Positions 1,546 through 26,367 of a stretch of 64,000 nucleotides of DNA are shown here, piece by piece (within the stretch, counting starts at the first letter, position 1; the number at the start of each line of letters is the position of its first letter). This DNA is from Hyalangium ruber. Lineage in GTDB: Bacteria > Myxococcota > Myxococcia > Myxococcales > Myxococcaceae. A program made the translations under genes and the position numbers. The stretch spans positions 1-64,000 of the forward strand of contig NZ_JAXIVS010000008.1 of NCBI RefSeq assembly GCF_034259325.1. The letters are read 5' to 3'. Below the pieces are notes generated by a model. That model made no database searches, had not been told where the DNA came from, and worked only from the letters and a program-made list of their open reading frames with translations.

Positions 1546-3345
1546 ATGTCTGCACTCCGACTCCTGGCTCTCTCGCACCTGTTGCTCGTCGGCCTCCATG
1601 CGCGTGGAGACGAGCTTCGTCCCGGGGCCGATCTGATCGTTTTCAACGCGAAGATCACCACTCAGCACCTAGCGCAGCCGACGGCTTCCGCGGTCGCGAT
1701 CAAAAGAGGGCGGATCTACGCAGTGGGCGACGACGCCGAGATCCTCGCCCTCAAGAACAGCAAAACCAAACTGATCGATGCGGAGGGGCATCGCCTGATC
1801 CCGGGCATCAATGATGCCCACGTCCACGTGCTGAATGAGAACAACTACAACTACAACGTGAGGTGGGACGGGGTTCCCACCTTGAGCCGCGCCCTCGAGA
1901 TGTTGAAGGAACAGGCCAAAAGAACGCCCAAGGGCCAATGGGTCAAGGTGATCGGGGGTTGGTCGCCGTATCAGTTCAAGGAGAACCGGTTCCCGACCTT
2001 GGAGGAGCTGAACGCCGCGGTACCTGACCGGCCGTACATCGTTCAATACGCCTACAACCAGGCGTTCTTGAACGAGTTGGCGATGAAGGAGATCGGCGTG
2101 GGAACCCCCAAGTTCCAGATGCCGCCCGGCACGGAATTCGAGAAAGACATGCAAGGCAAGTACACCGGCGTCGTGCGAGGGTTCACCTGGACCTTCGTGG
2201 CGCTCGAAGCGGTGGTCCCGTTGCCTTCCTTCGCGGAGAAGGTGAACTCGCTCGCCTACGCGATCAACGACTTGAACCGGTTCGGAGTGGTATCGGCGCT
2301 GGAGTCCGGCAGCATCATCCCCTACCCGGAAGGGCACAAGCCCATCGAAGCCCTGATCAGGGATCAGCGTTTGAACGTTCGTTTCCCTTTCATGGATCTC
2401 CAGCTCGTCGAGCCCGGCGCTTCGATGGTGGACGCCGAGATCGATGCCATCACCAAGAAGTCTCCGACCAGCCCCGGGGACAACACGCACCCGACCCTGG
2501 CGCATGGTCACGAATACCAAACCAACGGAGAAGTGCTGAACGCCCAACTCCACGACCATGAGAACTTCGACCGGCCGGCTGTGGTGATCGATCGGGAATT
2601 CATGCGAAAGACCGTCGAAGAGGACGTGGGCAAGCTGGTGAAGCGGCGAAGCCCGTTCCGGATGCATATCAGCTACGACGAGAACATCTCTCCATTCCTG
2701 GATGCTCTGGAAGCGCTGAACAAGAAAACGCCTTTCGACGGCCTGCGGTGGAGCATCGAGCACGCCGAAACGATCAGCCCGAAAAACATCGAAAGGATCA
2801 AGAAACTGGGCGGCGGAATCGCGCTGGACGACAAGATGGCGCTCCACGGAGACGGCTTCATCAAGACCCACGGCCGCGAGGTGGCCCTGCAGACGCCTCG
2901 CTTGCGTCAGCTCGTCGACAGCGGGATCCCGCTGGCCATGACCACCGACGGATTCAGGGCTTCTTCTTACAACCCGTGGGTGGCTATCCAGTGGATGGTC
3001 ACCGGCAAGTCGGTGTCGGGCTCGGAGATCCTGGCCAAGGACAACCGCCTGAGCCGGGAAGAGGCGCTCAAACTCTATACTTTGGGTGCCGCGTGGTTCA
3101 CCAAGACCGAGAACGAGAGCGGGAGGATCGCGCCGGGCAACCTAGCGGACTTCGCGCTGCTGAGCACCGACTACTTCTCGGTGCCGGAAGAGGAGATCCA
3201 GCATATCACTTCCGTGATGACCGTCGTGGACGGGAAGGTCGTGTTCGGTGCGGGCAAATACAGCAAACTCGCTCCGGAACTGCCGAAGATCATCCCGACG
3301 TGGTCCCCGATCAAGTACTTCGGCGGCTACTATGGCGCGAAATGA
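1546..3345 (+). CDS. Exported amidohydrolase, YtcJ-like (Amidohydro_3)
   Basis: The product, about 599 residues, resembles YtcJ-type metal-dependent amidohydrolases. After a hydrophobic N-terminus (LRLLALSHLLLVGLHARGDE) it has the N-terminal beta-sandwich (ADLIVFNAKI, AVAIKRGRIYAVG). The metal-binding HVH motif follows in INDAHVHVLNE, about residue 92, and IEHAETI and TTDGFRASSYNP are later ligand segments. The C-terminal SGRIAPGNLADFALLS is typical of the superfamily. The ATG at 1546 is preferred over an in-frame ATG at 1516 because it starts the signal peptide directly. The substrate is unknown; YtcJ relatives hydrolyse amide or carbamate bonds. The gene is intact and sits inside a block of transposon scars, followed at once by a broken GMC oxidoreductase gene in the same direction. 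Confidence 0.88.
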   Translation: MSALRLLALSHLLLVGLHARGDELRPGADLIVFNAKITTQHLAQPTASAVAIKRGRIYAVGDDAEILALKNSKTKLIDAEGHRLIPGINDAHVHVLNENNYNYNVRWDGVPTLSRALEMLKEQAKRTPKGQWVKVIGGWSPYQFKENRFPTLEELNAAVPDRPYIVQYAYNQAFLNELAMKEIGVGTPKFQMPPGTEFEKDMQGKYTGVVRGFTWTFVALEAVVPLPSFAEKVNSLAYAINDLNRFGVVSALESGSIIPYPEGHKPIEALIRDQRLNVRFPFMDLQLVEPGASMVDAEIDAITKKSPTSPGDNTHPTLAHGHEYQTNGEVLNAQLHDHENFDRPAVVIDREFMRKTVEEDVGKLVKRRSPFRMHISYDENISPFLDALEALNKKTPFDGLRWSIEHAETISPKNIERIKKLGGGIALDDKMALHGDGFIKTHGREVALQTPRLRQLVDSGIPLAMTTDGFRASSYNPWVAIQWMVTGKSVSGSEILAKDNRLSREEALKLYTLGAAWFTKTENESGRIAPGNLADFALLSTDYFSVPEEEIQHITSVMTVVDGKVVFGAGKYSKLAPELPKIIPTWSPIKYFGGYYGAK

Positions 3346-3358
3346 CGAGCTGAAACCC

Positions 3359-3621
3359 ATGGGCCAAAGCGTGAACAAAGCGCATGGAGCCGCCGGAGCG
3401 GACGTGATCATCGTGGGCGCTGGGTCGGCGGGGGCCGTCCTGGCCCGCCGATGGGCGCGGAGAGCGATCCGACCTCGGTCGTGGATCGATGGGGACAGGT
3501 TCGGGCCGTGGAAGGCCTACGGGTCATCGATTCGTCGATCATTCCGGCGATCCCGTCGGTTCCTACCAATCTGACCACGATCATGTTGGCCGAGAAGCTC
3601 GCCCATGAGCTGTTCCGATGA
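3359..3621 (+). pseudogene. GMC oxidoreductase with internal deletion
   Basis: The first codons encode the FAD-binding N-terminus of a GMC oxidoreductase: DVIIVGAGSAGAVLARR, a GxGxxG dinucleotide fold. At about base 3450 the similarity jumps to the C-terminal end of the same family in another frame: MGAESDPTSVVD, VEGLRVIDSSIIP, then PTNLTTIMLAEKLAHELF and a stop at 3619-3621. Roughly 400-450 residues that should lie between are missing and the frame changes at the junction. Both halves are clean matches, so this is a single internal deletion and not gradual decay. The start lies just past the amidohydrolase stop, so the two were probably once an operon. Confidence 0.85.
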
Positions 3622-3627
3622 GAGGCG

Positions 3628-4551
3628 TCAGACGATGAGCAGACCCGCCGCCGGACGAAGCGACTTCAGCTTCACGGCGGCCAGGATGGCCAGGAAGTCG
3701 GTCCCTGCCGAGGACAGCTTGGCTTGATCGTAGATCACCACGACGGGCAGCCTGGGCGGGGCCGGCAGCACCGGACGGAAGTTGAGCCGGCTGCCCGCGA
3801 GCTTAGCCATCGTCTCGAAGCCGATCGCGACGCCTTTGCCGGACTCGACGGCCGCGAAGAGACTGGAGATCCCGTCGCACTCCATCACGATGTTCGGCTC
3901 CTCGGTGAACCCGGAGAGGATCTTCCGGATCGCCGAATGAGCCTCCGGGTGCTCGCTCTTCGTGAAGGTGATCAGCCCTTCCTTCGCGACTTCGGCCAAC
4001 GGCACTTGCTTCAGCTTCGCGAAACGGTGCTCTTTGGGGAAAGCCACGGTGACGCCGTAGCTTCCGAGCTCTTTCATCGCCAGCCCCTCGAATGACTGGG
4101 GGGCGACGCCGATGGTGATTCCGAGATCCAGCTTCAGATCCCTCACGCCGCGGACGATCCCGTTGCTCGACAGGTCTTTTAGCTCGATCTGGATCGATGG
4201 ATGCTGCTTGTGGAAAACCCGCATCGCTTGCTTCAGGAGTTCCACGGCCGGCGTGGCGGCGAATCCGATCCTCAGGATGGACCGATGCGAAGGCGATTTC
4301 CGTCGCACCTTCTCGACGGCGTCTTCGACCCGACGAAGGATGACCTTGCATTCGGCGAGAAACACCTTGCCCGCTTCCGTCAGAGCGATGGAATTGGGAT
4401 ATCGCTCGAGGAGCTCGACTCCGAGCTCCTCCTCCAAGTCGCGGATTTGCCGACTGAGCGCAGGTTGAGAAACATGAAGCAGTTGCGCCGCGCGGGTCAC
4501 GCTGAGCTGCTCGGCAACCGCCGCGAAATACCTCACGTGTCTGAGTTCCAT
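3628..4551 (-). CDS. LysR-family transcriptional regulator
   Basis: The 307-residue product begins MELRHVRYFAAVAEQLSVTR and continues with AAQLLHVSQPALSRQIRDLE, the classic LysR helix-turn-helix. A substrate-binding domain follows (LRIGFAATPAVELL, LDLGITIG, EGLITFTKSEHPEA). An upstream in-frame ATG at 4575 lies in the 11-bp repeat and is unlikely to be the native start. The gene is convergent with the amidohydrolase/GMC pair 6 bp away. LysR genes usually control a divergent neighbour, but upstream of this one there is only an IS91-like remnant, so its original target may have been lost or may be the amidohydrolase. It appears intact. Confidence 0.92.
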   Translation of the reverse strand: MELRHVRYFAAVAEQLSVTRAAQLLHVSQPALSRQIRDLEEELGVELLERYPNSIALTEAGKVFLAECKVILRRVEDAVEKVRRKSPSHRSILRIGFAATPAVELLKQAMRVFHKQHPSIQIELKDLSSNGIVRGVRDLKLDLGITIGVAPQSFEGLAMKELGSYGVTVAFPKEHRFAKLKQVPLAEVAKEGLITFTKSEHPEAHSAIRKILSGFTEEPNIVMECDGISSLFAAVESGKGVAIGFETMAKLAGSRLNFRPVLPAPPRLPVVVIYDQAKLSSAGTDFLAILAAVKLKSLRPAAGLLIV

Positions 4552-4569
4552 GATCGCAGCATAACCAAA

Positions 4570-4580
4570 AGGCATGCTAG
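4570..4580. repeat. Right copy of 11-bp direct repeat AGGCATGCTAG
   Basis: This is an identical copy of the sequence at 1418-1428. It lies 18 bases upstream of the LysR start codon and supplies the in-frame stop that ends the truncated IS91-like reading frame on the minus strand. It marks the right edge of the 3.2-kb passenger block. Confidence 0.5.
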
Positions 4581-4581
4581 C

Positions 4582-4669
4582 GGCACCTAAGGGGCAGTCC
4601 GCGCCCCAGCTCGCCTGCCTCCGCCAGCAGCGTGGCGAGGTTATCCCTCACCGCCTCATACAGGATCAT
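4582..4669 (-). pseudogene. IS91-like transposase, N-terminal remnant
   Basis: The minus strand reads MILYEAVRDNLATLLAEAGE then LGRGLP. This resembles the start of IS91-like zinc-binding transposases, which begin with a similar LYxxVRxxLxxxLxxA helix followed by GxxLPRxVExxFxxYLxCG. Similarity stops after GLP, about base 4592, and the frame ends at a stop in the 11-bp repeat. The zinc-binding and catalytic domains are absent. The C-terminal end of such a protein is found in the same orientation at 1042-1215. The assignment is from recall of the family and rests on fewer than 30 residues. Confidence 0.6.
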
Positions 4670-5054
4670 CGAGGGAGAGCAGCTCACACTGCGTACGCAG
4701 TCGCTCACTGTCGATCCCAACGTTAGAAATCAGGGCTCGGGCTGCGACGCGCAGATAACCACGGAGGTAAGTTGGGAGAACAACACGCTCGTGATTCCGG
4801 CGACCGTGAGTAGCTCGGGCACCGTGGAACAGTTCGTCCGCGACAAAAAGAAGGGCACGACGGCGACGAAGCCCCTTAGCTCGTCTCAGGAGTCGTGCTC
4901 CGTCAGTCTCACGAAGGGCCGCTACTCGCTGACAGTCCGCGATGACGGGGTGGTCCTTCTCACGTCCTCGGCGGAGCCGGGTGTAGTGGAGCTGGAGCCG
5001 ATAGACGACGTGGAGCCGAAGTTCTTCGAGCGCTTCAATGCCCTGGTGAAGTAA
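4632..5054 (+). CDS. Hypothetical protein, probably 5'-truncated
   Basis: This is an open frame of 140 codons with no recognised domain. The later part (ITTEVSWENNTLVIPATVSS, KGRYSLTVRDDGVVLLTSSA) has alternating polar/hydrophobic strands suggesting a beta-rich secreted or surface protein. The first dozen codons from the GTG at 4632 run antisense through the IS91-like remnant, so they are not native. There is no signal peptide or good ribosome binding site. The simplest reading is the 3' part of a gene whose beginning was replaced by the insertion. Expression is doubtful. Confidence 0.5.
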   Translation: MARLSLTASYRIIEGEQLTLRTQSLTVDPNVRNQGSGCDAQITTEVSWENNTLVIPATVSSSGTVEQFVRDKKKGTTATKPLSSSQESCSVSLTKGRYSLTVRDDGVVLLTSSAEPGVVELEPIDDVEPKFFERFNALVK

Positions 5055-5162
5055 GGCGCGCAGCAGAGCGCGGGGTGTTGAGCCCCAAGCACCCTGTCAG
5101 CCCTTACGTCGGCAAGCTGCTGCTCGCTGTCCCCGTGCTGCACCCATCGCGAGCGGAGTGGG

Positions 5163-5585
5163 CTAGTTGTTGATGACTCGAAAGACTCTCCAAGGCGCTG
5201 CTGGAGAGTCCCTGCGGAGGAGCCAGCAATTCACACCGACCGTGCTCGGCTGGAGCGTATACGTACCGATGGTGTAGAAATGGAGGCCATCGGGCATCGG
5301 TAGGTACTCCCAGCCCTCGTACTGCATGACGAGCAGGTTCTTTTCTTTGCTGCTCGAGCCACGGTACGCGCCGACGATGCCATCGTAATAGGCTTGCCGC
5401 CCGTAGATGAGGCCAGTGCCTGACGTCGACTCGGGGGCGTTGGCGATGCCGACATCCTCGGTCGCCAGCTCCTTCATTGCTTCGAACTTCTCTGCTGCGT
5501 AAAGCTGGTTCCAGGTTCGAGCGAACTGCTTCACTTTCTCAATCTCGGACTTCACATCAAAAGTCACGGGCTTGCTTTCGGTCAT
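5163..5585 (-). CDS. NTF2-like / SnoaL-type protein
   Basis: The product has about 140 residues, starting MTESKPVTFDVKSEIEKVKQ. The pattern FARTWNQLYAAEKFEAMKEL, then a conserved D-V-G, then GRQAYYDGIVGAYRG, then four beta-strands (LLVMQYEGWEYL, LHFYTIGTYTL, CWLLRRD, WRVFRVIN) is that of the NTF2-like cone fold. No catalytic residues can be assigned and the ligand is unknown. A GTG nine bases earlier is possible; the ATG is chosen. It stands downstream of an esterase gene in the same direction with about 30 bp between them, so they may be co-transcribed. Confidence 0.65.
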   Translation of the reverse strand: MTESKPVTFDVKSEIEKVKQFARTWNQLYAAEKFEAMKELATEDVGIANAPESTSGTGLIYGRQAYYDGIVGAYRGSSSKEKNLLVMQYEGWEYLPMPDGLHFYTIGTYTLQPSTVGVNCWLLRRDSPAAPWRVFRVINN

Positions 5586-5615
5586 GCCCGCCACGCTAGC
5601 TCACCCGCGGCCGAC

Positions 5616-6479
5616 CTACGCGGGTTGAGGGGACACCTCTCCTGCAGGCGGTGACGAGGCGGCCTCGGGACGCTTGCCCGGCGTTCCGGTGAAGAGGAAC
5701 TGCAGCGCGGCGGGCGCGCGCTTGCGCCAGTCGTGCTCACTGTGCGTTCCGTCCTGGTCCGCGATCCAGCAGAGCGAGGTGTCGTCCCAGCCGCGCTCGC
5801 GCAGGTGGTGGACCAGGCGCTCCGCGTCGGCGACGACCGAGCCCCCGTCCTCCTTGGCGCCCGCGTCGATGTAGATACGCGACGTCCAGGGCTTCGGCTG
5901 CGCGGCGACGTAGTCGAAGATCTTCCGCTCCGCGAACCAGAAGGACGGCGACATGCACAGCGCGGCGCCGAACAGGTCCGGATGGCGGAAGTGCGCGTAG
6001 AGCGCGGCGAGGCCGCCCATCGATGAGCCGCCCACGGCGGTGCCCGCCGGGTCCGTCCGCACCTTGAACTCCTGGGCGATTTGCGGAGCCAGCTCCGCCT
6101 TCACCCACGCGAGCAGGTCATCCGCCCGCCCCGCGCTGTCACCCGAGGTGAAGGGCGACAGCTCGTCGAGCCGCGAGGAGCCGCCGTGGTCGATCCCCAC
6201 GATGACCGGCGCGGGCAGCCCCTGCTCCGCCAACTGCTTCACCGCGTGGTGGACGTACCACCCGCCCGAGAACGAGGGCGCGTCGTGAAAGATGTTCTGT
6301 CCGTCGAACATGAACAGCACCGGCGCGCCACCCGCCGCTTCGTTCGGCGCGTACACGCGCACGTGGCGTTCCTGCCCCAGGCCGGGCACCTGGAAAGGCC
6401 CCAACAGGTAGATGATGTGCTCTGCCATGAATGTGGGCATCCCCTCGTTGGGCCCAATTTTTGAAGCACTCCGCGTCAT
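5616..6479 (-). CDS. Alpha/beta-hydrolase, esterase D / Fes-like
   Basis: The 287-residue protein belongs to the putative-esterase family (PF00756 type). Visible landmarks are the strand VLFMFDGQNIFHD, the nucleophile elbow GGSSMGG, the acid-bearing segment YIDAGAKEDGG and the histidine in DGTHSEHDWRKR. Together they give a complete Ser-Asp-His triad. Family members hydrolyse acyl esters, including siderophore esters and S-formylglutathione; the substrate here is unknown. No signal peptide is seen, so it is probably cytoplasmic. The ATG at 6479 is preceded by a GGAAGGGGG ribosome binding site. The gene is divergent from the long repeat protein starting at 6626. Confidence 0.85.
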   Translation of the reverse strand: MTRSASKIGPNEGMPTFMAEHIIYLLGPFQVPGLGQERHVRVYAPNEAAGGAPVLFMFDGQNIFHDAPSFSGGWYVHHAVKQLAEQGLPAPVIVGIDHGGSSRLDELSPFTSGDSAGRADDLLAWVKAELAPQIAQEFKVRTDPAGTAVGGSSMGGLAALYAHFRHPDLFGAALCMSPSFWFAERKIFDYVAAQPKPWTSRIYIDAGAKEDGGSVVADAERLVHHLRERGWDDTSLCWIADQDGTHSEHDWRKRAPAALQFLFTGTPGKRPEAASSPPAGEVSPQPA

Positions 6480-6625
6480 GGCAAGCCCCCTTCCACACGA
6501 ATGGCGAAAATCTCGGTGGGGGAGCGGAGGCGGCTCGGGAGCGGGAGAAGGACTTACAGCGCTTCCAGAGGGTGTGCGATGAAGGGTCGTCCATATGACG
6601 CCACGTTCGGCCTGAGACCCCCGAC

Positions 6626-9532
6626 ATGCGCAAGTTCCTCATCGTGGCCGCAGTCCTCGGAGCCGTGGGGCTCGGCCTCTTCATGCTCTCGCGCTGGGGA
6701 GGCTCCCCCGAGGTGTCGAGCCCGGGGCAGCCCTCGGCGTCGCTGAAGCCAGCCGCCACGAAGCTGGGAGCCGAGAGTCCCGAGGACCTCGGCGCGCGAG
6801 GCACCGCGGACGCGGGCAGCACACCGACGCTGGCTCGTCTGCCCTCGGAGGGAGACGGACTGCTGGAGGTAGAGGTACTCGCGGGCGGGCGCCCCGTGCC
6901 GGGTGCCAGCGCGCGGCTGTACTGGCGCGGGGCGAGGGATCCGAACCTTGGCGAGGTGTCCTGGCGCCTGGCGAGCACGGGCACCACGGATGCCCAGGGG
7001 CGCGTCCGCCTCGCCTCGCGGCCCGGCCTCTACCTGGTGGCGGTGCGAGCACCGGGCTACGCGCCACTCAAGCGGGATGTGACGCGCCCCTCTGGCGAGG
7101 TACGCACCTTCCTGAGCCTCACGTTGGAGCAAGGCCAGTCCCTCACTGGCCACACAGTGGTGAAGGGCTCGCGGGAGCCGCTGCCCCTGGTGGAACTCGT
7201 CTTCACGGTACAAAGCCCCCAGCTGCCTCTCTGGCAGGATGCCGAGGCTCCCGCCGAAGAGCGGGCGTACGCCAGCAGTGATGCACGGGGCGCCTTCAGC
7301 GTGGAGGGCCTGGCCTCTGGCAGCTACCTGCTGGAGGCGCGCGCGCCCGGCCATGCGCGAGCGGTGATGCGCAATGTGCGGGTGCCCGCGGCGGGCCCGC
7401 TGACGGTGGCGCTGTCAGTCGCGGGAGTCATCGAGGGCTTCGTCGTGGACGCGCAGGGGCAGCCGGCCGCGGGCGCCGAGGTGCTGCTCGGCGGCTTCGT
7501 CCCCCAGACCGTCTCCACGGGCGAGGGGGGTGGCTTCTCCGTGGAGGTGGAGGCGGGCGACTACACCGTGTCCGCGCGGCGCGGCGAGGAGGCGGGCGCG
7601 CTGGACAGCCCCGTCCCCGTCAGCGCGGGTCAGACGGTGCGCGACGTGCGGGTGCGGCTCGGCCAGGGCGCGGGGGTGGAGGGGCGCGTGGTGGCCCACG
7701 CCACGGGGGCTCCCGTGGCAGAGGCCAAGGTGGACGTCAGCCCCTATGGCGCCAGCGGTGACTCCGGCCGCGCGGTGACGGACAGCCAGGGGCACTTCTC
7801 CGTGGGGGCCCTGGCGCCGGGCAGCTACGATGTGGTGGTGAATGCCCCGGGCTTCGCGCCCCTCACGCGGCGCGGGCTCACGGTGTCCGGGGGCGAGCGC
7901 TTCACCCTGGAACTCGCGCTCACGGCCACTGGCGCCGTGGAAGGCCAGGTGCGGACCGGGGCGGGCCAGCCCGTGGCTGGAGCCCTGGTCACCGCCGGAA
8001 CCCGCTGGGGCGGGCCCCTCGTCGGCGAGCCGGCCGAGTCCCGCACCAACGCCGAGGGGCACTACCGCCTGGAGGGGCTCGGTGTCGGTCGCCTCTACCT
8101 CTCCGCCAGGTGGGAGGGCGCGACGGCTGGGGTGAGCCAGCCCGTGGAGGTGACGGAGGGCGGCACGCAGCGCCTGGACTTCACCCTGGAGGAGACGGGC
8201 ACCGTGGAGGGCGTGGTGCGCGCCGCTCAGGGCGCCCTGCCTTCCTCGCCTTTGACGGTGATGGCCTTTCCCCAGGATGGCGATCGCAGCGGTCCGGCGG
8301 GCATTGGTCAGACGCAGGTGGAGGCCCGTGGCAACTTCACGATGAGTCTCCCACCGGGCACCTATGACTTGTACGTCTCAGAGGAGCGGCGAGGCCTGGG
8401 GCTCCGAAAGCCGAAGCAGGTGCGGGTGGAGGCGGGGAGGACCGTCCAGGCCGAACTGACCTGGCAGAGCGAGGCCCCTGGAACTGACGAGCTTCGGGGC
8501 ATCGTCCTCGAGCCGAGCGGGGCACCTTCTCCGCTGGCCTTCGTCACCCTGTCCATCGAAGGCCAGCGCGGGGGCGTGGGCTCGCTGATCCCCACGGACG
8601 AGGAGGGGCGCTTCTCCATGCCCTTGCCTGCGGGGAGAGGAGGCACCGCCGCGCGCTCCATCACCTTGAGCGCACGCAATGGCGGGCGCATGGCGGAACT
8701 CCATGACGTGAAGCCCGAGGCGGGAGAGGTGGTGGTGCGGCTCCAGCCCGCGGCCTCGATCCAAGGCCGGGTGGTACGCGCGGGCCAGGGCCTTCCGGTG
8801 CGGGGCTTCACCGTCTCCTTCCAGCCGAGGAGCTGGGATCGCTTCCCGCTGGATGACCTGAGCTGGGAGTTCGCGGGTGATCGCTTCGAGCTCCGAGACG
8901 TGCCCGCCGAGCCGCTGGAGCTGGTCGTGCGCACGGCGGACGGCGCTCGGGGTGACGCCCAGGTGTTCCCGGATCCCGGCGCTTCGGTCACGGTGGAAGT
9001 CACGTTGGCGGCCACCGCGGGCGTGCGCGGCCGGGTGGTGGATGCGGCCACCCTGGAGCCCATCTCCGAGGCGTTCATCTTCCTGGAGGGAGAGCGCCCC
9101 ATGAGCATGAATCAGGAGACGGCGAGCGATGGGCGCTTCAAGCTGGATGGGGTTGCGCCAGGCGAGCACACGCTGGTCGTCGTCGCGGGCAGGGAGCGGG
9201 AGCCGGTGCGGCGTCCCATCACGGTGGTGGAGGGCCAGGTCCACGACGTGGGAGACGTTGCCTTGAGCGTGCCCCGAGTTCCCTCTGGCACCATCGGTAT
9301 CCGGGTGAGCCCCGAGGGCGCGCGGATCGTCATCAGCCAGGTGGTGCATGAGAGCCCCGCGGCCCGAGCGGGGCTCGAGGTGGGAGATGTCCTGCTGAGC
9401 GTGGACGGTACGCCCGTCACGGAGCTCATGGACGCCTTCCGGAGGCTGAAGGGGGCCCCCAGCTCGCCGGTGGTACTCACGGTGCGAAGAGAGGGCACGG
9501 AGCAGTCCTTCTCCGTCCTCCGTGCCCCCTGA
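6626..9532 (+). CDS. Membrane-anchored carboxypeptidase-regulatory-repeat protein with PDZ
   Basis: This 968-residue protein has an N-terminal hydrophobic anchor (LIVAAVLGAVGLGLFML). A long array of carboxypeptidase-regulatory-like beta-sandwich modules follows, each about 80-90 residues with the signature G-x-V-x-D/A-x-x-G-x-P-x-x-x-A and T-D-x-x-G-x-F-x-x-x-x-L-x-x-G-x-Y. Examples are GFVVDAQGQPAAGAEVLLGG and GRVVDAATLEPISEAFIFLE. The last 80 residues are a PDZ domain (SPAARAGLEVGDVLLSVDG). Such proteins are probably periplasmic or cell-surface scaffolds; no enzymatic residues are visible. The PDZ could bind C-termini of exported partners. Confidence 0.85.
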   Translation: MRKFLIVAAVLGAVGLGLFMLSRWGGSPEVSSPGQPSASLKPAATKLGAESPEDLGARGTADAGSTPTLARLPSEGDGLLEVEVLAGGRPVPGASARLYWRGARDPNLGEVSWRLASTGTTDAQGRVRLASRPGLYLVAVRAPGYAPLKRDVTRPSGEVRTFLSLTLEQGQSLTGHTVVKGSREPLPLVELVFTVQSPQLPLWQDAEAPAEERAYASSDARGAFSVEGLASGSYLLEARAPGHARAVMRNVRVPAAGPLTVALSVAGVIEGFVVDAQGQPAAGAEVLLGGFVPQTVSTGEGGGFSVEVEAGDYTVSARRGEEAGALDSPVPVSAGQTVRDVRVRLGQGAGVEGRVVAHATGAPVAEAKVDVSPYGASGDSGRAVTDSQGHFSVGALAPGSYDVVVNAPGFAPLTRRGLTVSGGERFTLELALTATGAVEGQVRTGAGQPVAGALVTAGTRWGGPLVGEPAESRTNAEGHYRLEGLGVGRLYLSARWEGATAGVSQPVEVTEGGTQRLDFTLEETGTVEGVVRAAQGALPSSPLTVMAFPQDGDRSGPAGIGQTQVEARGNFTMSLPPGTYDLYVSEERRGLGLRKPKQVRVEAGRTVQAELTWQSEAPGTDELRGIVLEPSGAPSPLAFVTLSIEGQRGGVGSLIPTDEEGRFSMPLPAGRGGTAARSITLSARNGGRMAELHDVKPEAGEVVVRLQPAASIQGRVVRAGQGLPVRGFTVSFQPRSWDRFPLDDLSWEFAGDRFELRDVPAEPLELVVRTADGARGDAQVFPDPGASVTVEVTLAATAGVRGRVVDAATLEPISEAFIFLEGERPMSMNQETASDGRFKLDGVAPGEHTLVVVAGREREPVRRPITVVEGQVHDVGDVALSVPRVPSGTIGIRVSPEGARIVISQVVHESPAARAGLEVGDVLLSVDGTPVTELMDAFRRLKGAPSSPVVLTVRREGTEQSFSVLRAP

Positions 9533-9672
9533 AGCAGGCGGGAGCGGACAGCCGTCAGCTCGCTCGGCAGGTTGTTCCAGCATGTCGCAGGAGTGACGGG
9601 CTCCGGTATCCTTGACACGGGACGGGTGGCCCTCATCCTCGACGTGCCCTCGCTCCTCAAGAAGGCCCACCC

Positions 9673-11382
9673 ATGACGTGGTTCCGAAACCTCTCGATTC
9701 TGACCAAGCTCTTCGGAGCGTTCGTCATTCTGCTGGCCCTCTCCACGGCGATCGGGATCTTCTCGCTCCGGCAACTGTCCTCGTTGCATGGCGCGACCCG
9801 GCGGCTCACCAATGACGAGCTGCCGGCGCTCGCCTCCGTCGCTTCGTTCCATAGCGGTTTCAGGAACTACCGGGTGGCGGAGATGGAGCACATCCTCGCC
9901 ACGGACGCGGAGAAGATGTCGCGGATCGAGCGCCATATGGAACGCTTGCTGGCGGAGATGGTGAAGGCCGCCGAGAAGTACGAGATCCTCATCACGGAGC
10001 CAACGGAGCGCCGCCTCTTCGCCGAGCTAGGGGCGCTCTGGAACGAGTACTCCGCCGAGCATGACAAGGTGCTGGCGCTGTCTCGGAGGAACGAAGACGC
10101 GCAGGCAGAGGCGATCCTCACCGGCCGGTCCGCGCAGATCTTCGAGACCATGACCGCCAAGCAGGATGAGTTGATGGCGCTCCAGCTTCAGGGCAACCAT
10201 GAGGCGACGGCCGCTGCGGAGCGTACTTACGAGGCGGCGCGAGGCTTGATCGTCACGCTGATCCTGGCGGGAGCCGTGCTGGGCCTCGCCCTGTGCCTGT
10301 CCATCGCCTGGAGCATCTCGCGCCCGCTCGCGGAGGCCGTGAGGGTGGCCGGCCGCATCGCCGAGGGAGACCTGACGGTGCGAATCGAGGCCACGGGGGA
10401 CGATGAGCCGGGCCGGCTGCTGAAGGGCATGGGGGCCATGGCGCAGCGGCTGGCGCAGGTCATCGGGGAGGTGCGGGAGGGCGCGGCGGCGCTGGCCTCC
10501 GCGGCGGGGCAGGTCTCCTCCTCCTCGCAGACCCTGTCGCAGGGCACCTCGGAGCAGGCCAGCAGCGTGGAGGAGACGACGGCGAGCCTGGAGCAGATGA
10601 GCGCCACGATCGAGCAGAACAGCCAGCACAGCCGGCAGATGGAGCAAATGGCGCTCGAGGGCGCGCGGCAGACGAAGGAGAGCGGCGAGGCGGTGAAGGC
10701 GACGGTGGAGGCGATGAACACGATCGCGGAGAAGATCGGCATCATCGAGGAGATCGCCTACCAGACGAACCTGCTGGCGCTGAACGCGGCGATCGAGGCC
10801 GCGCGGGCGGGAGAGCACGGCCGGGGCTTCGCGGTGGTGGCGACGGAGGTGCGCAAGCTGGCGGAGCGCAGCCAGACGGCGGCCAAGGAGATCAGCGGCC
10901 TGGCGGGCACGAGCGTGAAGGTGGCCCAGCGCAGCGGCGAGCTGCTGGGGGAGCTGGTGCCGTCGATCCAGAAGACGACGCAGCTGGTGCAGGAGGTGGT
11001 GGCGGCCAGCGGGGAGCAGGCCGCGGGGGTAGGGCACATGAACCGGGCGATGGTGCATGTGGATCAGGTGACGCAGCGCAACGCCTCCGCGGCGGAGGAG
11101 CTGTCGGGGACGGCCGAGGAGCTGTCCGCGCAGGCAGAGACGCTGCAGCAGCTCGTGGCGTACTTCAAGGTGAGTGACAGAGAGGGCAGGAGGCCCTGGA
11201 CCGAGCTAGCCCGGCAGAGCGTGAGGCGGCCGGGAGCGGGTGGGCAGGGCGGCCCTGGCGCTTGGAGCCTGCCTCCCCCCGCGCAGGGCTTGAAGGCCGC
11301 CAGTCAGGCAGAGACGTCCCAGGCGAGCGAGGCGGGCCAGCACCCGCTGTCCGCCGAGGATCGTGAGTTCAGGCGCTTCTAA
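9673..11382 (+). CDS. Methyl-accepting chemotaxis protein
   Basis: The 569-residue receptor has TM1 at about residues 12-31, a periplasmic four-helix-bundle sensor of about 155 residues (4HB_MCP type) and TM2 at about 191-214. A HAMP domain runs to about 266 ([20 protein letters not shown]) and a long signalling coiled coil follows. The hairpin tip that contacts CheA/CheW is intact ([20 protein letters not shown], then [20 protein letters not shown]). After the coiled coil there is a proline/serine/glutamine-rich tail of about 70 residues ending EFRRF, which could tether adaptation enzymes. The ligand is unknown and no che genes are in the window, so this is an orphan receptor. Confidence 0.95.
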
Positions 11383-11542
11383 GCGGTAGACGGTGGTTCA
11401 ACGGTCACGGCCGTCGAGCGCGAGCAGCTCCGGCTGTGGAACCTATGGCGGCACATTGACTCACCGCGCAATGACAACCTGAGAAGTCGGCTGCTAGACA
11501 GCGCCGAAACCTGAATCAACTTTCAACTTCGGAGGGGTTGTC

Positions 11543-13936
<2,394 letters not shown>

Positions 13937-13967
13937 CGCGAAGCGGTGTCCGGGATATAGGGCGGGG

Positions 13968-15212
13968 GTGACTTCCACCTCCGCCCCTGTTCCACCCATC
14001 AGCGCTCTTCGCCTTCCCGGCTACGTCGCATTCCTCGCGACGTTCATGCTGGCGATGATGGCCGACAACATCGAGCACGTCATCAGCTACTGGGTGGCGT
14101 TCCAGAAGTTCCACTCGCCGGCGCTGGGTGGCTTCGCGGTCGTCTCGCACTGGTTGCCCTTCCTGCTGCTCTCGGTGCCCGTCGGGGCGCTGAATGACCG
14201 CTTCGATTCACGGCGGCTCATTCAAATGGGGATGGTGCTCTTCATCCTCGCGTCGCTGGGCTGGGGCTACTTCTTCGTCACGGACTCGCTGAAGGTCTGG
14301 CATGCGATGGTGCTCCTCACGCTCCATGGGGGCGCGGGCGTGCTCTGGAACACCTCCAGCCAGATGCTGCTCTACGACATCGTCGGGCCCGCCTCGCTGG
14401 CCAGCGCCGTGCGGTTGAACGCGACGGCACGCTACCTCGGGGTGCTGGTGGGCCCTGGCGTCGGCAGCCTCATCATGCGCACGCTGGGGCCGACATACGG
14501 CATCTTCCTCAACGTCGTCTTCTATCTGCCCCTGGCCATCTGGCTCATCCGCGCGCCGTATGGCCGCCACTACCGCGGCGTCGAGGCGGGGCCCAAGCGT
14601 GCGGTGAGAGGCCTCGCCGACATCCTCCAGACGGTGCGAGACGTCCGTGGCCTTCCCATCGTGTCCGGCATGGTGCTGCTCGCGGGCGCCGCGTCGTTCT
14701 TCATCGGCAACAGCTACCACGCGCAAATGCCGGGCTTCGCCGATGACCTTGGGCATGGAGATCCGGGCGCGGCCTACACAGCCCTGCTCGGCGCCGATGC
14801 CGCTGGCGCGCTGCTCGCCGGCATTCTCCTCGAGACGCGTGGAAGCTGGCTTCGGATGACGCCCACGGCCGCGATGACGCTCGCGCTTCTGTGGGGGAGC
14901 GCGCTCTTCGCCTTCGCGACGGTACACGTCTACGCGGTGGCGATCGTGCTGCTCTTCGCCGCGGGGTTCTTCGAACTCTCGTTCAGCAGCATGGCGCAGG
15001 CCCTGGTGCAGATGAATGCCCCCGACGCGATCCGGGGCCGCGTGCTCGGGCTCTTCGCGATGGCGGCGCTGGGCCTTCGCGCTTTCAGCGGCATCGTGGT
15101 GGGCCTGCTGGGGAGCGTGGTGGGAACCCACGTCTCTCTGGGCATCGCTGCCGCGGGTTTCGTCGCAGTCATCGCGTTCCTCTTCTGGAGGACGAGGCCT
15201 GCGACGAGGTGA
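13968..15212 (+). CDS. MFS transporter, EntS-like (MFS_3)
   Basis: The roughly 414-residue product has about twelve hydrophobic segments. It resembles the MFS_3 group that contains the enterobactin exporter EntS: SVPVGALNDRFDSRRLIQMG is the loop 2-3 motif, SASAVRLNATARYLG-like and LVGPGVGSLIM lie mid-protein, and IRGRVLGLFAMAALGLRAF lies near the C-terminus. The GTG at 13968 with GGGCGGGGG just before it is chosen, because the frame upstream of it overlaps the TonB receptor gene. Proximity to that receptor is the only pointer to a substrate and makes siderophore export plausible but unproven. Confidence 0.8.
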   Translation: MTSTSAPVPPISALRLPGYVAFLATFMLAMMADNIEHVISYWVAFQKFHSPALGGFAVVSHWLPFLLLSVPVGALNDRFDSRRLIQMGMVLFILASLGWGYFFVTDSLKVWHAMVLLTLHGGAGVLWNTSSQMLLYDIVGPASLASAVRLNATARYLGVLVGPGVGSLIMRTLGPTYGIFLNVVFYLPLAIWLIRAPYGRHYRGVEAGPKRAVRGLADILQTVRDVRGLPIVSGMVLLAGAASFFIGNSYHAQMPGFADDLGHGDPGAAYTALLGADAAGALLAGILLETRGSWLRMTPTAAMTLALLWGSALFAFATVHVYAVAIVLLFAAGFFELSFSSMAQALVQMNAPDAIRGRVLGLFAMAALGLRAFSGIVVGLLGSVVGTHVSLGIAAAGFVAVIAFLFWRTRPATR

Positions 15213-15284
15213 CGAACCCTCGGGTGAGAGGTGGGCGGTCACTGTAGGGCATCGCCGGATATGTCGGGTCTCGCCGTTTAAGCT

Positions 15285-15308
15285 AAATTAGTGGGACTTT
15301 CTTAATTT
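15285..15308. promoter_or_regulatory. AT-rich inverted repeat upstream of protease operon
   Basis: AAATTA (15285-15290) and TAATTT (15303-15308) form a symmetric pair with a 12-base spacer inside a markedly AT-rich patch about 105 bp before the metallopeptidase start. It could be an operator or part of the promoter; no regulator is identified. Confidence 0.3.
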
Positions 15309-15413
15309 ATTGGAGTTCAAAGATAGAATGCTCTATGAGGTCTGGACTCTTTCCCGACGCGTCCGTGCTGGGCCCGTGGGAAGGACCGATTCAGAACCAG
15401 AGGGGAAACGGGC

Positions 15414-16181
15414 ATGTTCAAGAAAGCGGCAGTTCTCGTGGCGAGCTGTGGGGCGTTGCTGTCCGGCTGCGGTACCGAACCGCAGACCGAGAACGAGGAG
15501 ATCATCTCCAACCTGGTCGAGGCCGGCTTCCCGGCCAGCGACATCATGGTCTCCGAGGGCTCCGTGTACGTGGGGCGTGATGCTCACGTGACCCTCGATG
15601 CGTCCCGGGAGATGCTCCAGGCTGGCAGTGAGGGCCCGGAGCAGTACCGGACGACCAATCTCGTCGGCACCAGCGTGACGAAGATCTGCGTCGTTCCCAC
15701 CACCCAGTTCAACAGCTACAGCCGGCTCAGCGCGGGGCTCGATCTGGCCATCGCCAACTACAACAGCCTGGGACTCCGCCTGACCTTCGCGCGTGGCTCG
15801 GGCTCCGGCTGCACCGCGACCATCAGCGCGAAGACCATGAGCGGCACCGGCGGCTCCGCAGGCTTCCCCACGGGTGGCAAGCCCTACGGAACCATCAATA
15901 TCGGCACCGGGCTGCAGAGCTACAGCGAGGACGTGAACGAGCACGTCATTACCCACGAGCTGGGCCACGCGATCGGCTTCCGCCACACGGACTACTACAA
16001 TCGGTCCATTAGCTGCGGCTCCGGCGGCGACGAGGGCGCCTCGAACGTGGGAGCCATCCACATCCCCGGGACGCCGACCACTGCCACGGTGGGCGGGTCG
16101 GTCATGAACTCCTGCTTCCGCTCGACCGAGTCCGGCGAGTGGACCAACTCTGACAAGACCGCGCTGAACGCCCTCTACTGA
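15414..16181 (+). CDS. Lipoprotein zinc metallopeptidase (M57 / HEIGH-like)
   Basis: The 255-residue precursor has a lipobox (VASCGALLSGC). The zinc signature HELGHAIGFRH places zinc ligands at about H181, H185 and H191 with E182 as the catalytic base. It fits the extended HExxHxxGxxH metzincin-type site of the myxobacterial dual-action HEIGH peptidases (PF12388). The upstream part (TKICVVPTTQFNSYSRLSAG, LRLTFARGSG) matches the architecture I recall for this family. It is probably exported and membrane-anchored. The serine-protease lipoprotein gene begins 3 bp after the stop, so the two are almost surely one operon. Confidence 0.85.
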   Translation: MFKKAAVLVASCGALLSGCGTEPQTENEEIISNLVEAGFPASDIMVSEGSVYVGRDAHVTLDASREMLQAGSEGPEQYRTTNLVGTSVTKICVVPTTQFNSYSRLSAGLDLAIANYNSLGLRLTFARGSGSGCTATISAKTMSGTGGSAGFPTGGKPYGTINIGTGLQSYSEDVNEHVITHELGHAIGFRHTDYYNRSISCGSGGDEGASNVGAIHIPGTPTTATVGGSVMNSCFRSTESGEWTNSDKTALNALY

Positions 16182-22902: not shown

Positions 22903-25164
22903 TCACCTCAAAGTGGATGCACTTGGCCAGCCCCGGATCCAGTACTTCTCGACGCCGGAGTCTTCCATGTGTCGGGACAGCGTCTTGCTGATCTCGATCA
23001 TGTCAGCGGTTCCCCACTGCCACAGCTCGTAGCGACGCAGCTGTCGATGCAGGCTGTACGCATCGAAGGCGTAGTGGCTGGGGCTGAGTCGGAGGAGTTC
23101 GAGCATCTCCTGAACGTACTGAAGGGCCTGTTGCTCGCACGTGTCGCGCTCCTCCCAGGCGGCGGCCAGGATCATCAGCTCGACCATGCTGGACAGCGCC
23201 CAGAAGCGATGCTGGAGCTCCACCGCCTTCAAGGCGTCGCGAGTCATGACGGCCGCGGCGGTCCATCGGTCCTGGAAGTCCTGCGCCTCCCACGCTCGGG
23301 GATTCAACGCCAGGGTGACGGCCAGGTATTGGACCAGGGCCCAAGAGTCCCGCGCTCCTCCTTGCTGGTAGCAGGAGTGGTAGTACTGCTGGGCCTCCTC
23401 CAGGTAATAGCGCCGTTCCTTCTTCAGCTGCTCCGGGCGAAGGTCCTCTTCGGGCTTCACGGGCTCCGCCTCGGTGCGCGCCGGCCCACGTCCCGCTCGG
23501 GCTGTACGCGCCCTCCGGGACGCGGGCGAGGTGTTTCGGGCTTCTTCCAACGAGGCGAGCAACAGCCCGATGACCCCCGCCACCTGCTTGCTGGCGCTCG
23601 CCAGGACTCCGAGTGCCGAGACCTGCTCCAGGCCTTTGCCTCCCGTAGGGGCCGCGTCCTTCAGCCACTGCATGGCGGTGATCAGATCCTGACGGAACTC
23701 GGGGAGTCTGATCCGAGAGGCTTCCAAGCCCTCCTGTTTTTGCCAGGTCTGCTCCAGGAAGTTGTCGATCCGGGACATGACCGCGCCCAGCAGGTCCCGG
23801 GCCCGCTTGAAGCCGACCCGCTTCAGCTGGAGGTCGAGATCGACGGGAAGCGCAGCGTACACCACCAGCGAGGCCCAGTCGTGAGTGGAGTCTGGCAGCA
23901 AGGCCCGAAGCTTCTTGCGCAGCAGGATGATGGCGTCCCGAGGGTCCGTGCCGCGAAGGAGCTGGGTGTAGATCTCCTCCGCCATGATCACCGAACCCTT
24001 GAAGGACAAGGGGAACTGCGAGCCGATGACCAGCGGGATGCCATGCTCATGCAGTTCGTGCGCAACGCTGGCGCCCGGAGCGAGCACTCCCCCCTGATTG
24101 GCACTGTCGCAGCTTGCGATCGTCAGGACGACGGGCTTGGACCGCGAGTGCTTCTCATACTGCGCGTTGAGGGGAATCAGCGCCGCCGCGAGCCGCTCGC
24201 CGGGGACGACGTCGATCTTGTTCGGGTTCTCGGAGTCATGGAAGGCGAGCCCGTACTTGGGCGTCTCTCCGATGGCACCTTCCACCGCGAAGCCATGCAC
24301 CAGCAGATGCACATGGGTGTAGGGGATGGAGCCTTCCCGGCAGGCCTCCGCGATGGCCTGCTGGATGGAGGCCACGCTCGCCTCCGGGAGGAGGGTGACG
24401 TAGCGGCGGAACTCCTTGTCGAACTCCTCGTCCCCCGGACGATTCACCATGTACGGCTGCAGCGCCTGTTGAATGGCCTGCTTGTGCTCGCGGAGCGGCA
24501 CGGCCGCCATCGGTGGCGGGGCCGCGGAGATGACCAGGATGCGCACCTGTTCCGGCCAATCGAAGGTGGTCGCCGCAACCCGGCGGGCCTCGCGGGTGAT
24601 GCAGACGGGACTCACCGTCTGGAGGCTCATGAACTGCCCATGTCCCTGGAGCCCCGTGTAGGCCTTGGCCAGCTCGAAGGGGAGCATCGCCAGCTCGGAC
24701 GCGGACAGGACGATGCGCAGGTGAATCTTCCGCTTTCCCTCTTCTGGATCGGAAGTGGACAGCTCCGCGGTGAGGGAGTGGATGGACTCCAGCAGGCGGG
24801 TGACTTCCTCGGAGGCTTCCCGCAGCGCCACCGAGGCCATGGTCGGCCCCATCTCGTAGCGAAGTTGCTGGATGCGCAGCAGGAGGTCCAAGTGCTCGAC
24901 CCCGACGCGGACGGTCTCCGCGTCATGGTTGCCGCACAGCGCCAGATAGGGGGTCAGCGGGGAGAGCAGGTGGTTGTGGGCCGGGCCGTGTCGAAGCAGC
25001 TCCAGCTTCACGGTGCGGATGGCGCGGGGAAGCTCGGTCGCCGTCGCGGGAGGCAGATCCCGGAGCTCGCCGTCGGAGCGGAGGGAAGTCTCTTTGGCCT
25101 TGGGCTCGGACGCACCGCGAGTCGCCGAGGCTTCGCCGTTGCGCTGGGTCTTGGGTGGCTCCAT
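22903..25164 (-). CDS. CHAT-domain (caspase-like) protease
   Basis: The protein of about 753 residues has a helical N-terminal region at 45-135, then a CHAT protease domain at about 145-445. Visible are IVLSASELAMLPFELA, RILVISAAPP, the catalytic histidine H290 in HVHLLVHGF and the catalytic cysteine C352 in VVLTIASCDSANQGG. The family C-terminal pattern follows (LVIGSQFPLSFKGSVIMAEE, GTDPRDAIILLRKKL, HDWASLVVYAALP). After it come a linker rich in Arg/Ala and about 200 residues of TPR-like helices. The ATG at 25164 has GGGGAGGG before it. CHAT proteases are executioner or signalling peptidases in bacterial conflict systems. The gene is divergent from an MBL-fold gene 129 bp away. Confidence 0.9.
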   Translation of the reverse strand: MEPPKTQRNGEASATRGASEPKAKETSLRSDGELRDLPPATATELPRAIRTVKLELLRHGPAHNHLLSPLTPYLALCGNHDAETVRVGVEHLDLLLRIQQLRYEMGPTMASVALREASEEVTRLLESIHSLTAELSTSDPEEGKRKIHLRIVLSASELAMLPFELAKAYTGLQGHGQFMSLQTVSPVCITREARRVAATTFDWPEQVRILVISAAPPPMAAVPLREHKQAIQQALQPYMVNRPGDEEFDKEFRRYVTLLPEASVASIQQAIAEACREGSIPYTHVHLLVHGFAVEGAIGETPKYGLAFHDSENPNKIDVVPGERLAAALIPLNAQYEKHSRSKPVVLTIASCDSANQGGVLAPGASVAHELHEHGIPLVIGSQFPLSFKGSVIMAEEIYTQLLRGTDPRDAIILLRKKLRALLPDSTHDWASLVVYAALPVDLDLQLKRVGFKRARDLLGAVMSRIDNFLEQTWQKQEGLEASRIRLPEFRQDLITAMQWLKDAAPTGGKGLEQVSALGVLASASKQVAGVIGLLLASLEEARNTSPASRRARTARAGRGPARTEAEPVKPEEDLRPEQLKKERRYYLEEAQQYYHSCYQQGGARDSWALVQYLAVTLALNPRAWEAQDFQDRWTAAAVMTRDALKAVELQHRFWALSSMVELMILAAAWEERDTCEQQALQYVQEMLELLRLSPSHYAFDAYSLHRQLRRYELWQWGTADMIEISKTLSRHMEDSGVEKYWIRGWPSASTLR

Positions 25165-25293
25165 ATCCCTCCCCTGGAGCGGCTCAGTCTTGGCCAGGGA
25201 GTCTGACGGCGCAAGAACTGGGACGGCTCCTCCTGGCCCTGTCGTCAGTCGGGAACGTGCTCCCTCCAGGATTGCCACATAAGCTCCGGCGGC

Positions 25294-26367
25294 ATGTTCG
25301 CGATCGAGATGCTGCCGGCGGATCACGGCGATTGCCTCGTCATCAGCTACGGCAACGAGAGGCGGCCGAATCGCATCCTCATCGATGCGGGAACGCCCTC
25401 CACGTTCAAGCGGCTCCAGCAGTACATCGAGAAGCTTCCCGCCCGGCAGCGGAGCTTCGAGCTGCTCATCGTTACGCACATCGACAGCGACCACATCGGC
25501 GGGGTGCTCCCGCTGCTCCGTGCGAACCTCGGCCTCACCTTCGGAGACATCTGGTTCAACGCCTGGCACCACCTGACGCCCCCGGTGAGGAGGTTCCTGG
25601 GGCCACAACAGGGCGATCTGCTGGGGAATCTTCTCAGCCAGCGCCCGGATCTTCCTTGGAACAAGGCCTTCGGTGGAGACACCGTGGTCATCCCGGACAC
25701 GGGTGCCCTGCCGAGCGTCGAGCTGGCGGGAGGCATGACGCTCACCTTGCTCTCTCCCCGTTGGAAGGAGCTCGAGAACCTGGAGAAGTCCTGGACGGAT
25801 CAGGCCTTTCGCGCGGGGCGGATCCCCGGGGAACTCCCCATGCTGGCGGCCAGCGCTCCAGGGGCGATGGAGCTGCTGGGCGGTTCCTCTCGCATTGAGC
25901 AGCTCGCGGCGGCGCGGTTCTTCCCGGACGCGGCGGTCGCCAATGGGAGCAGCATCGCGGTGCTGGCGGAGTATGAGGGGAAGCGGGCCCTGCTGACCGG
26001 AGATGCCTTCGCCCCCGTGCTCACGGAGTCCATCCAACGACTCCCTGGTTTCGAGAAGCGCCTCACGGTGAATGCCGTCAAGCTCCCGCACCATGGCAGC
26101 GAGTCGAACGTGAGCCGGGAACTGCTCCATGTCCTCAAGAGCAACCGGTACCTCGTCTCCACCAATGGGAAGATCTTCAAGCACCCCGACGAAGTCGCCA
26201 TCGCCCGTGTCCTCGAGGAGGGTGGGGGAAGTGCCAGGATCTTCTTCAACTACAAGAGCCTGACGACACTCCCCTGGAAGACGAAGCGGATTGCCAAACG
26301 CTCAGCCAGAGGCTCCCCTTTCATCTACCCAGAGCGGGACGAAGAGGGGATTCTCGTGCGGCTCTGA
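25294..26367 (+). CDS. MBL-fold hydrolase, ComEC/Rec2-like domain, soluble
   Basis: The 357-residue soluble protein has a metallo-beta-lactamase fold close to the C-terminal domain of ComEC. It begins FAIEMLPADHGDCLVIS; RILIDAGTP follows, then the metal motif THIDSDHIGG (H62, D64, D66, H67). SSIAVLAEYEGKRALLTGDA supplies the bridging Asp at about 237, and AVKLPHHGSE carries the next His pair. All metal ligands appear present. Relatives are nucleases or phosphodiesterases; MBL hydrolases paired with proteases occur in type I AVAST defence loci. It shares a 129-bp divergent promoter region with the CHAT protease, so the two are probably co-regulated. Confidence 0.88.
   Translation: MFAIEMLPADHGDCLVISYGNERRPNRILIDAGTPSTFKRLQQYIEKLPARQRSFELLIVTHIDSDHIGGVLPLLRANLGLTFGDIWFNAWHHLTPPVRRFLGPQQGDLLGNLLSQRPDLPWNKAFGGDTVVIPDTGALPSVELAGGMTLTLLSPRWKELENLEKSWTDQAFRAGRIPGELPMLAASAPGAMELLGGSSRIEQLAAARFFPDAAVANGSSIAVLAEYEGKRALLTGDAFAPVLTESIQRLPGFEKRLTVNAVKLPHHGSESNVSRELLHVLKSNRYLVSTNGKIFKHPDEVAIARVLEEGGGSARIFFNYKSLTTLPWKTKRIAKRSARGSPFIYPERDEEGILVRL

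Follow-up and report, generated by a model that had tools for sequence, protein, structure and literature searches.

We examined a window of Hyalangium ruber DNA, the whole 64,000-nucleotide stretch, in which two genes lie back to back. One runs on the minus strand from an ATG at 25164 to 22903, with a Shine-Dalgarno-like sequence (GGGGAGGG) right upstream, and encodes a 753-residue protein with a CHAT protease domain (Pfam PF12770, E=1.5e-13). The other runs on the plus strand from 25294 to 26367 and encodes a 357-residue protein of the metallo-beta-lactamase (MBL) fold (Pfam Lactamase_B, E=5.6e-11). They are divergent neighbours, and the 129-bp spacing given in the preliminary description was exact. 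Each is present in one copy in the 10.8-Mb genome. The features are as follows.

22903..25164, minus strand: CHAT protease gene, 753 aa (ORF; Pfam CHAT match, E=1.5e-13; AlphaFold2 model; Foldseek)
22930..23838, minus strand: all-helical C-terminal region, CHAT residues 443-745 (model), TPR-S-like in relatives; candidate sensor or oligomerisation part
23857..24774, minus strand: CHAT (caspase-fold) catalytic domain, residues 131-436 (Pfam match)
24109..24111, minus strand: Cys352 of CHAT, predicted catalytic, invariant in 28 members, with the low-confidence loop 354-364 after it
24295..24297, minus strand: His290 of CHAT, predicted catalytic, invariant in 28 members
24925..25017, minus strand: N-terminal signature RTVxLELLRHGPxHNQLLSPLTxYLALCGNH, CHAT residues 50-80 (alignments of 3 and 28 members)
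25165..25293, no strand: divergent intergenic region, 129 bp, the gap between the CHAT and MBL ORFs
25294..26367, plus strand: MBL-fold protein, CanC-like candidate pro-nuclease, 357 aa (ORF; Pfam and PADLOC; tree; 9ic4 fold match)
25477..25494, plus strand: MBL metal motif HIDSDH, residues 62-67, with H62, D64, D66 and H67 invariant in 23 proteins
25564..25611, plus strand: candidate gating loop 1, MBL residues 91-106, with G103 and beside invariant G107 (pLDDT <50; alignment)
25801..25926, plus strand: candidate gating loop 2, MBL residues 170-211, with GRIPGE at 175-180 (pLDDT <50; absent from the ComEC domain)
26002..26004, plus strand: Asp237 of MBL, predicted metal ligand, invariant
26089..26094, plus strand: His266-His267 of the MBL HHGS motif, invariant

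Scans of the CHAT-MBL region for sigma-70-like promoters and for terminator patterns came back empty, which says little because the genome is GC-rich, and an RNA family search of the same region found none. The neighbouring genes encode trigger-factor-like and GST-like proteins, which had been put forward as possible further parts of the module. Neither gene adjoins the corresponding pair in a second genome (G030, below), and an orthologue of the GST-like gene (81% identical) in genome G007 has neither CHAT nor MBL alongside, so we dropped both. Nothing clearly marks the window as a defence island.

The catalytic residues of both proteins are intact, as had been claimed. In an alignment of 28 CHAT family members, H290-G291 and C352 showed no variation. 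The AlphaFold2 model of CHAT (pLDDT 83.6, pTM 0.84) is all-helical over residues 443-745, and the loop directly past Cys352 (354-364) was modelled at pLDDT <50; because of this low confidence, the model may represent an inactive resting state. With CHAT as the query, the PDB gave no match by sequence, and matches came from fold search alone: the closest solved folds found by Foldseek were SAVED-CHAT, Csx29/Craspase and separase, which are regulated, specific proteases, at sequence identities of ~10-16% and with E-values that speak of fold, not function. The pair thus shares with SAVED-CHAT and TPR-CHAT/Csx29 (Craspase) a CHAT protease fold that a sensor part probably activates, but it has no SAVED domain and no CRISPR effector nearby. 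The suggestion that the helical C-terminus acts as the sensor was borne out in part. The model is helical, and 17 of the 28 family members match Pfam TPR-S, described as a putative sensor of signals derived from nucleotides, but the window CHAT itself does not. We treat this region as a candidate sensor or oligomerisation part.

In the MBL protein, H62, D64, D66, H67, D237, H266 and H267 showed no variation among 23 aligned proteins, and H297 was kept in 22 of them. Its top PDB fold match was the ComEC nuclease domain (9ic4, E=1.6e-9), in agreement with its earlier description as ComEC-like. The structure model contains exactly two internal segments with pLDDT <50, residues 91-106 and 170-211, in a model of pLDDT 71.7 built from five sequences, a shallow alignment that may partly explain the low values. 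Aligned with ComEC, the MBL protein has ~60 residues more ahead of the NxSS motif, and loop 2 is missing from the ComEC domain.

Such loops have a published counterpart in MBL proteins that are made as pro-DNases: two disordered insertions keep them inactive until they are released by a partner protease, which is trypsin-like in Hachiman and AVAST and a caspase in the caspase-nuclease system canu (CanABC) (Tuck et al., 2025; PMC12799240). Both gates of the canu nuclease CanC contain conserved glycines, and CHAT is not mentioned in the main text of that study (Tuck et al., 2025). In our alignment, position 103 in loop 1 is Gly in 17 of 18 proteins of the caspase/CHAT group and Ser or Ala in all five trypsin-associated ones. 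The candidate gate glycines of the window protein are G103, common to 17/18 of the group, and G175 in loop 2, found in most, not all; the GRIPGE motif that begins at G175 is identical in both CHAT-paired MBL proteins, those of the window and G030.

A tree of MBL proteins placed the window and G030 proteins together (92/86), within a caspase-associated (CanC) group that is split from the Avs1a/LmuA group (95/94); this placement holds for the caspase-associated group as a whole, with no finer position inside it. Most relatives of the MBL protein accompany a C14 caspase. Relatives encoded on plasmids (37-42% identical) stand third in operons, after a caspase and a CanB-like gene, in Sinorhizobium, Rhizobium, Streptomyces, Bradyrhizobium and Caballeronia. 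A caspase-CanB-MBL operon is also present in a genome of the window's own family (G126), and a CanB homologue adjoins the MBL gene in genomes G116 and G130. On an Agrobacterium plasmid (L143, 907-10506), a canu operon has TIR, caspase and metallophosphoesterase genes ahead of it and a CHAT protein and an S8 peptidase behind it, forming a dense conflict cluster; we checked this CHAT, and it does not belong to the family of the window CHAT. At L125 (6001-12000), a CanC-like MBL with Ser for Gly in gate 1 lies beside a metallophosphoesterase and a P-loop ATPase-like protein, and no protease was seen adjoining it.

The window pair and canu have in common a ComEC-type MBL with two disordered loops and a candidate gate glycine in loop 1, a neighbouring protease of the caspase clan and the position of the MBL in the tree with CanC. 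They differ in that CanA is a C14 caspase with an Ig-like fold, encoded upstream on the same strand, whereas the window protease is a CHAT of another family on the opposite strand. In canu, CanB lies between caspase and nuclease; here no gene lies between CHAT and MBL, and CHAT shows no similarity to CanB (best E 0.51). Finally, canu is operonic and the window genes are divergent. The pair therefore works like canu, as we read it, yet is no member of it, since it is without C14 caspase, CanB and operon.

Type I AVAST had been cited as a case of protease plus MBL, with the reservation that no STAND NTPase was seen. The reservation stood: no trypsin domain, STAND or SMC gene lies beside the pair, and our results favour a conflict module of protease and MBL that does without a STAND protein. 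AVAST is not the nearest system. The best PADLOC matches of the MBL protein were LmuA (4.5e-68) and then Avs1a (3.5e-44), but these models are not discriminating, because true canu MBL proteins score equally high with them. Against the NCBIfam Avs1a model the protein scored 207.5 bits, with a cut-off of 420; a real Avs1a/Avs1b pair from the window's family (control locus L118) scored 291 and 748 bits in PADLOC. We rejected membership in type I AVAST on this sub-threshold score, the separate clade, the Gly in loop 1 and the lack of an Avs1b STAND protein with a trypsin-like domain, and membership in Lamassu on the separate clade and the lack of an adjoining trypsin-like protease or SMC-type LmuB. 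Both systems resemble the window pair in combining an MBL nuclease with a protease, but their protease is trypsin-like, fused to or beside sensor parts, the gate residue after the cut site is Ser or Ala, and their MBLs fall in the other clade. The phage collection held remote MBL relatives only, and the MBL loci on viral contigs were of Lamassu/AVAST type; on three phage-borne loci (L127-L129), serine-protease-like and SMC/AAA-like genes, judged by eye, adjoin the MBL gene.

We next asked how widely the pairing is conserved. In another genus of the same family (G030), the same divergent CHAT-MBL pair is found, with 49% identity in CHAT and 52% in MBL, and it shares no other neighbour with the window pair. 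Of the 145 genomes covered for the order, three have a CHAT of this family (the window, G030 and G124) and two have the divergent pair (the window and G030); in the 195 genomes searched for the phylum, no additional pair came up. In G124, the CHAT gene has no MBL beside it, and a calcineurin-like metallophosphoesterase gene ends ~10 bp upstream. Since the pair is kept in a second genus at ~50% identity, its adjacency is not chance. The linkage predicted by the preliminary description is thus conserved, resting on two cases, and the MBL gene is not always found without CHAT, but in its exact form the pairing was seen in these two of the genomes searched.

The phosphoesterase gene in G124 proved to be the usual partner of this CHAT family. 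Used as a query of the species-genome collection, the single CHAT sequence retrieved nothing, and a three-member alignment retrieved 28 loci, in Acidobacteriota, Actinomycetota, Bacteroidota, Myxococcota, Planctomycetota, Pseudomonadota, Thermodesulfobacteriota and a PVC MAG. The members have in common the signature RHGPxHNQLLSPLTxYLALCGNH. Most accompany a phosphoesterase: at 26 of the 28 loci the gene immediately upstream, in the same orientation, encodes a calcineurin-like metallophosphoesterase, and at the remaining two (L056 and L073) a subtilase (Peptidase_S8) takes this position. At two loci (L055 and L072), subtilase, phosphoesterase and CHAT stand in series. The phosphoesterase partners retain the metal motifs DLHxG, GDxVDF, GNHD, HGNE and GHTH and have a long, variable insert ahead of GHTH.

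The subtilase-containing loci span 6806-10067 (L056), 6764-10019 (L073), 5129-10217 (L055) and 5004-10073 (L072), and L055 has another MBL gene just upstream of its row of three. The widespread metallophosphoesterase-CHAT pairs are L050-L077, L038 and L126. At L065 (4247-10025), a metallophosphoesterase with a weak pYEATS match adjoins the pair, and at L038 (1768-11345, in G124) the pair is flanked by CAP12/PCTIR-type TIR, TIR_2 and MAP3K_TRAF_bd/TPR-S proteins.

The window CHAT is a true member of this family, alike in N-terminal signature, helical tail and position in the tree; it differs in its partner, which is an MBL encoded divergently instead of a phosphoesterase encoded directly upstream. 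In the CHAT tree, the window and G030 proteins form a clade (100/98) whose sister is the phosphoesterase-paired CHAT of Minicystis rosea (100/100), so that both are nested inside the phosphoesterase-paired family. The simplest reading of this nesting is therefore a change of partner, from phosphoesterase to MBL, at the window and G030. For the metallophosphoesterase-CHAT pair itself, PADLOC gave a generic CHAT match only, NCBIfam gave no match, and the literature searched, within limited coverage, held no description or name; the pair is apparently new to the literature and libraries covered.

A second arrangement couples CHAT to a CanC-like MBL. In four genomes of the window's family (G093, G030, G014 and G086), the MBL gene lies between a gene for a protein of ~990-1000 aa and one for a protein of 1780-1813 aa, the latter combining TPR-like repeats with a CHAT domain at its C-terminus. 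These loci span 5243-14660 (L113), 3156-12725 (L114), 6594-16094 (L115) and 3166-12671 (L116), and a further example (L117) is cut by a contig end. The C-terminal end of the ~990-aa protein appears CHAT-like by eye (VHTD...GCS). CHAT has thus been coupled to a CanC-like MBL at least twice, and a functional reading of the coupling is therefore stronger.

From the two loops, the ComEC fold and the extra residues relative to ComEC, which match the published marks of gated nucleases, together with the loop-1 glycine and the GRIPGE motif, we infer that CHAT is the activating protease. Our preferred reading, to which we assign a probability of about 0.6, is that CHAT and MBL form a minimal protease-activated nuclease switch in which CHAT cuts the gates of the MBL protein and frees a DNase. 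The MBL protein would be made as a gated pro-enzyme of ComEC type, with the insertions at ~91-106 and 170-211 covering the metal site. A trigger would be sensed or relayed, probably via the helical, TPR-S-like C-terminus of CHAT, and render CHAT active. Active CHAT would then cut both gates, our guesses for the sites being near F101-L-G103-P and near G175-RIPGE-180. The nuclease released in this way would degrade DNA, so that infection is stopped or the cell killed. This switch is favoured because the pairing is kept, the MBL falls among CanC proteins, CHAT has the caspase-clan dyad and its fold resembles those of specific proteases. It is weakened because the divergent pairs number two only, CanB, which co-purifies with CanA, is absent, the orientation is unlike that of the canu operon, confidence in the MBL model is intermediate, the cleavage sites are guessed and the window does not stand out as a defence island.

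The roles might instead be reversed, with CHAT as the effector and the metallo-enzyme as its regulator: the MBL would act as a phosphodiesterase on a nucleotide signal, by making, removing or trimming it, and the CHAT tail would read that signal. The partners of this family, metallophosphoesterase or MBL, are both phosphoester hydrolases, and two unrelated di-metal phosphoesterases would be interchangeable because they have the same role; the TPR-S matches in 17/28 family CHATs point the same way. We nevertheless consider this unlikely, as a subtilase partner at two loci better fits a substrate of the protease, and the MBL has the two loops of gated pro-nucleases and groups with the CanC DNases. 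It also seems improbable to us that CHAT and MBL are unconnected, each with a housekeeping or other role of its own. Each gene mostly occurs without the other, two pairs are known and the genes lie on opposite strands, but the divergent adjacency is kept across genera at ~50% identity with nothing else shared nearby, each of the two families elsewhere has a protease or hydrolase of the matching kind as its partner, and their occurrence is patchy. That the pair is a remnant of type I AVAST or the Lamassu hydrolase-protease module, or a variant with its sensor elsewhere in the genome, is very improbable despite the best PADLOC matches to LmuA and Avs1a, given non-discriminating models, a tree that separates the MBL from Avs1a/LmuA, an Avs1a score of 207 against a cut-off of 420, Gly and not Ser/Ala in loop 1, and the lack of trypsin domain, STAND and SMC gene beside the pair.

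If the protease-activated switch is true, caspase-activated nucleases would gain a second family of the caspase clan and a form of two genes that lacks CanB. The window pair would also be a clue to the mechanism of the whole CHAT family, because its MBL partner is of a kind already shown to be protease-activated. Tentatively, the metallophosphoesterase-CHAT pairs may be protease-activated zymogens, in which a CHAT with a TPR-S-like sensor unlocks interchangeable effectors (phosphoesterase, MBL DNase or subtilase); the prediction for these pairs is that CHAT has its phosphoesterase partner as substrate. The partner swap ties the gated-nuclease principle described in 2025 to a gene pair that occurs in at least seven phyla, and the lock-and-key principle, in which a protease unlocks a nuclease, may reach beyond the known cases.
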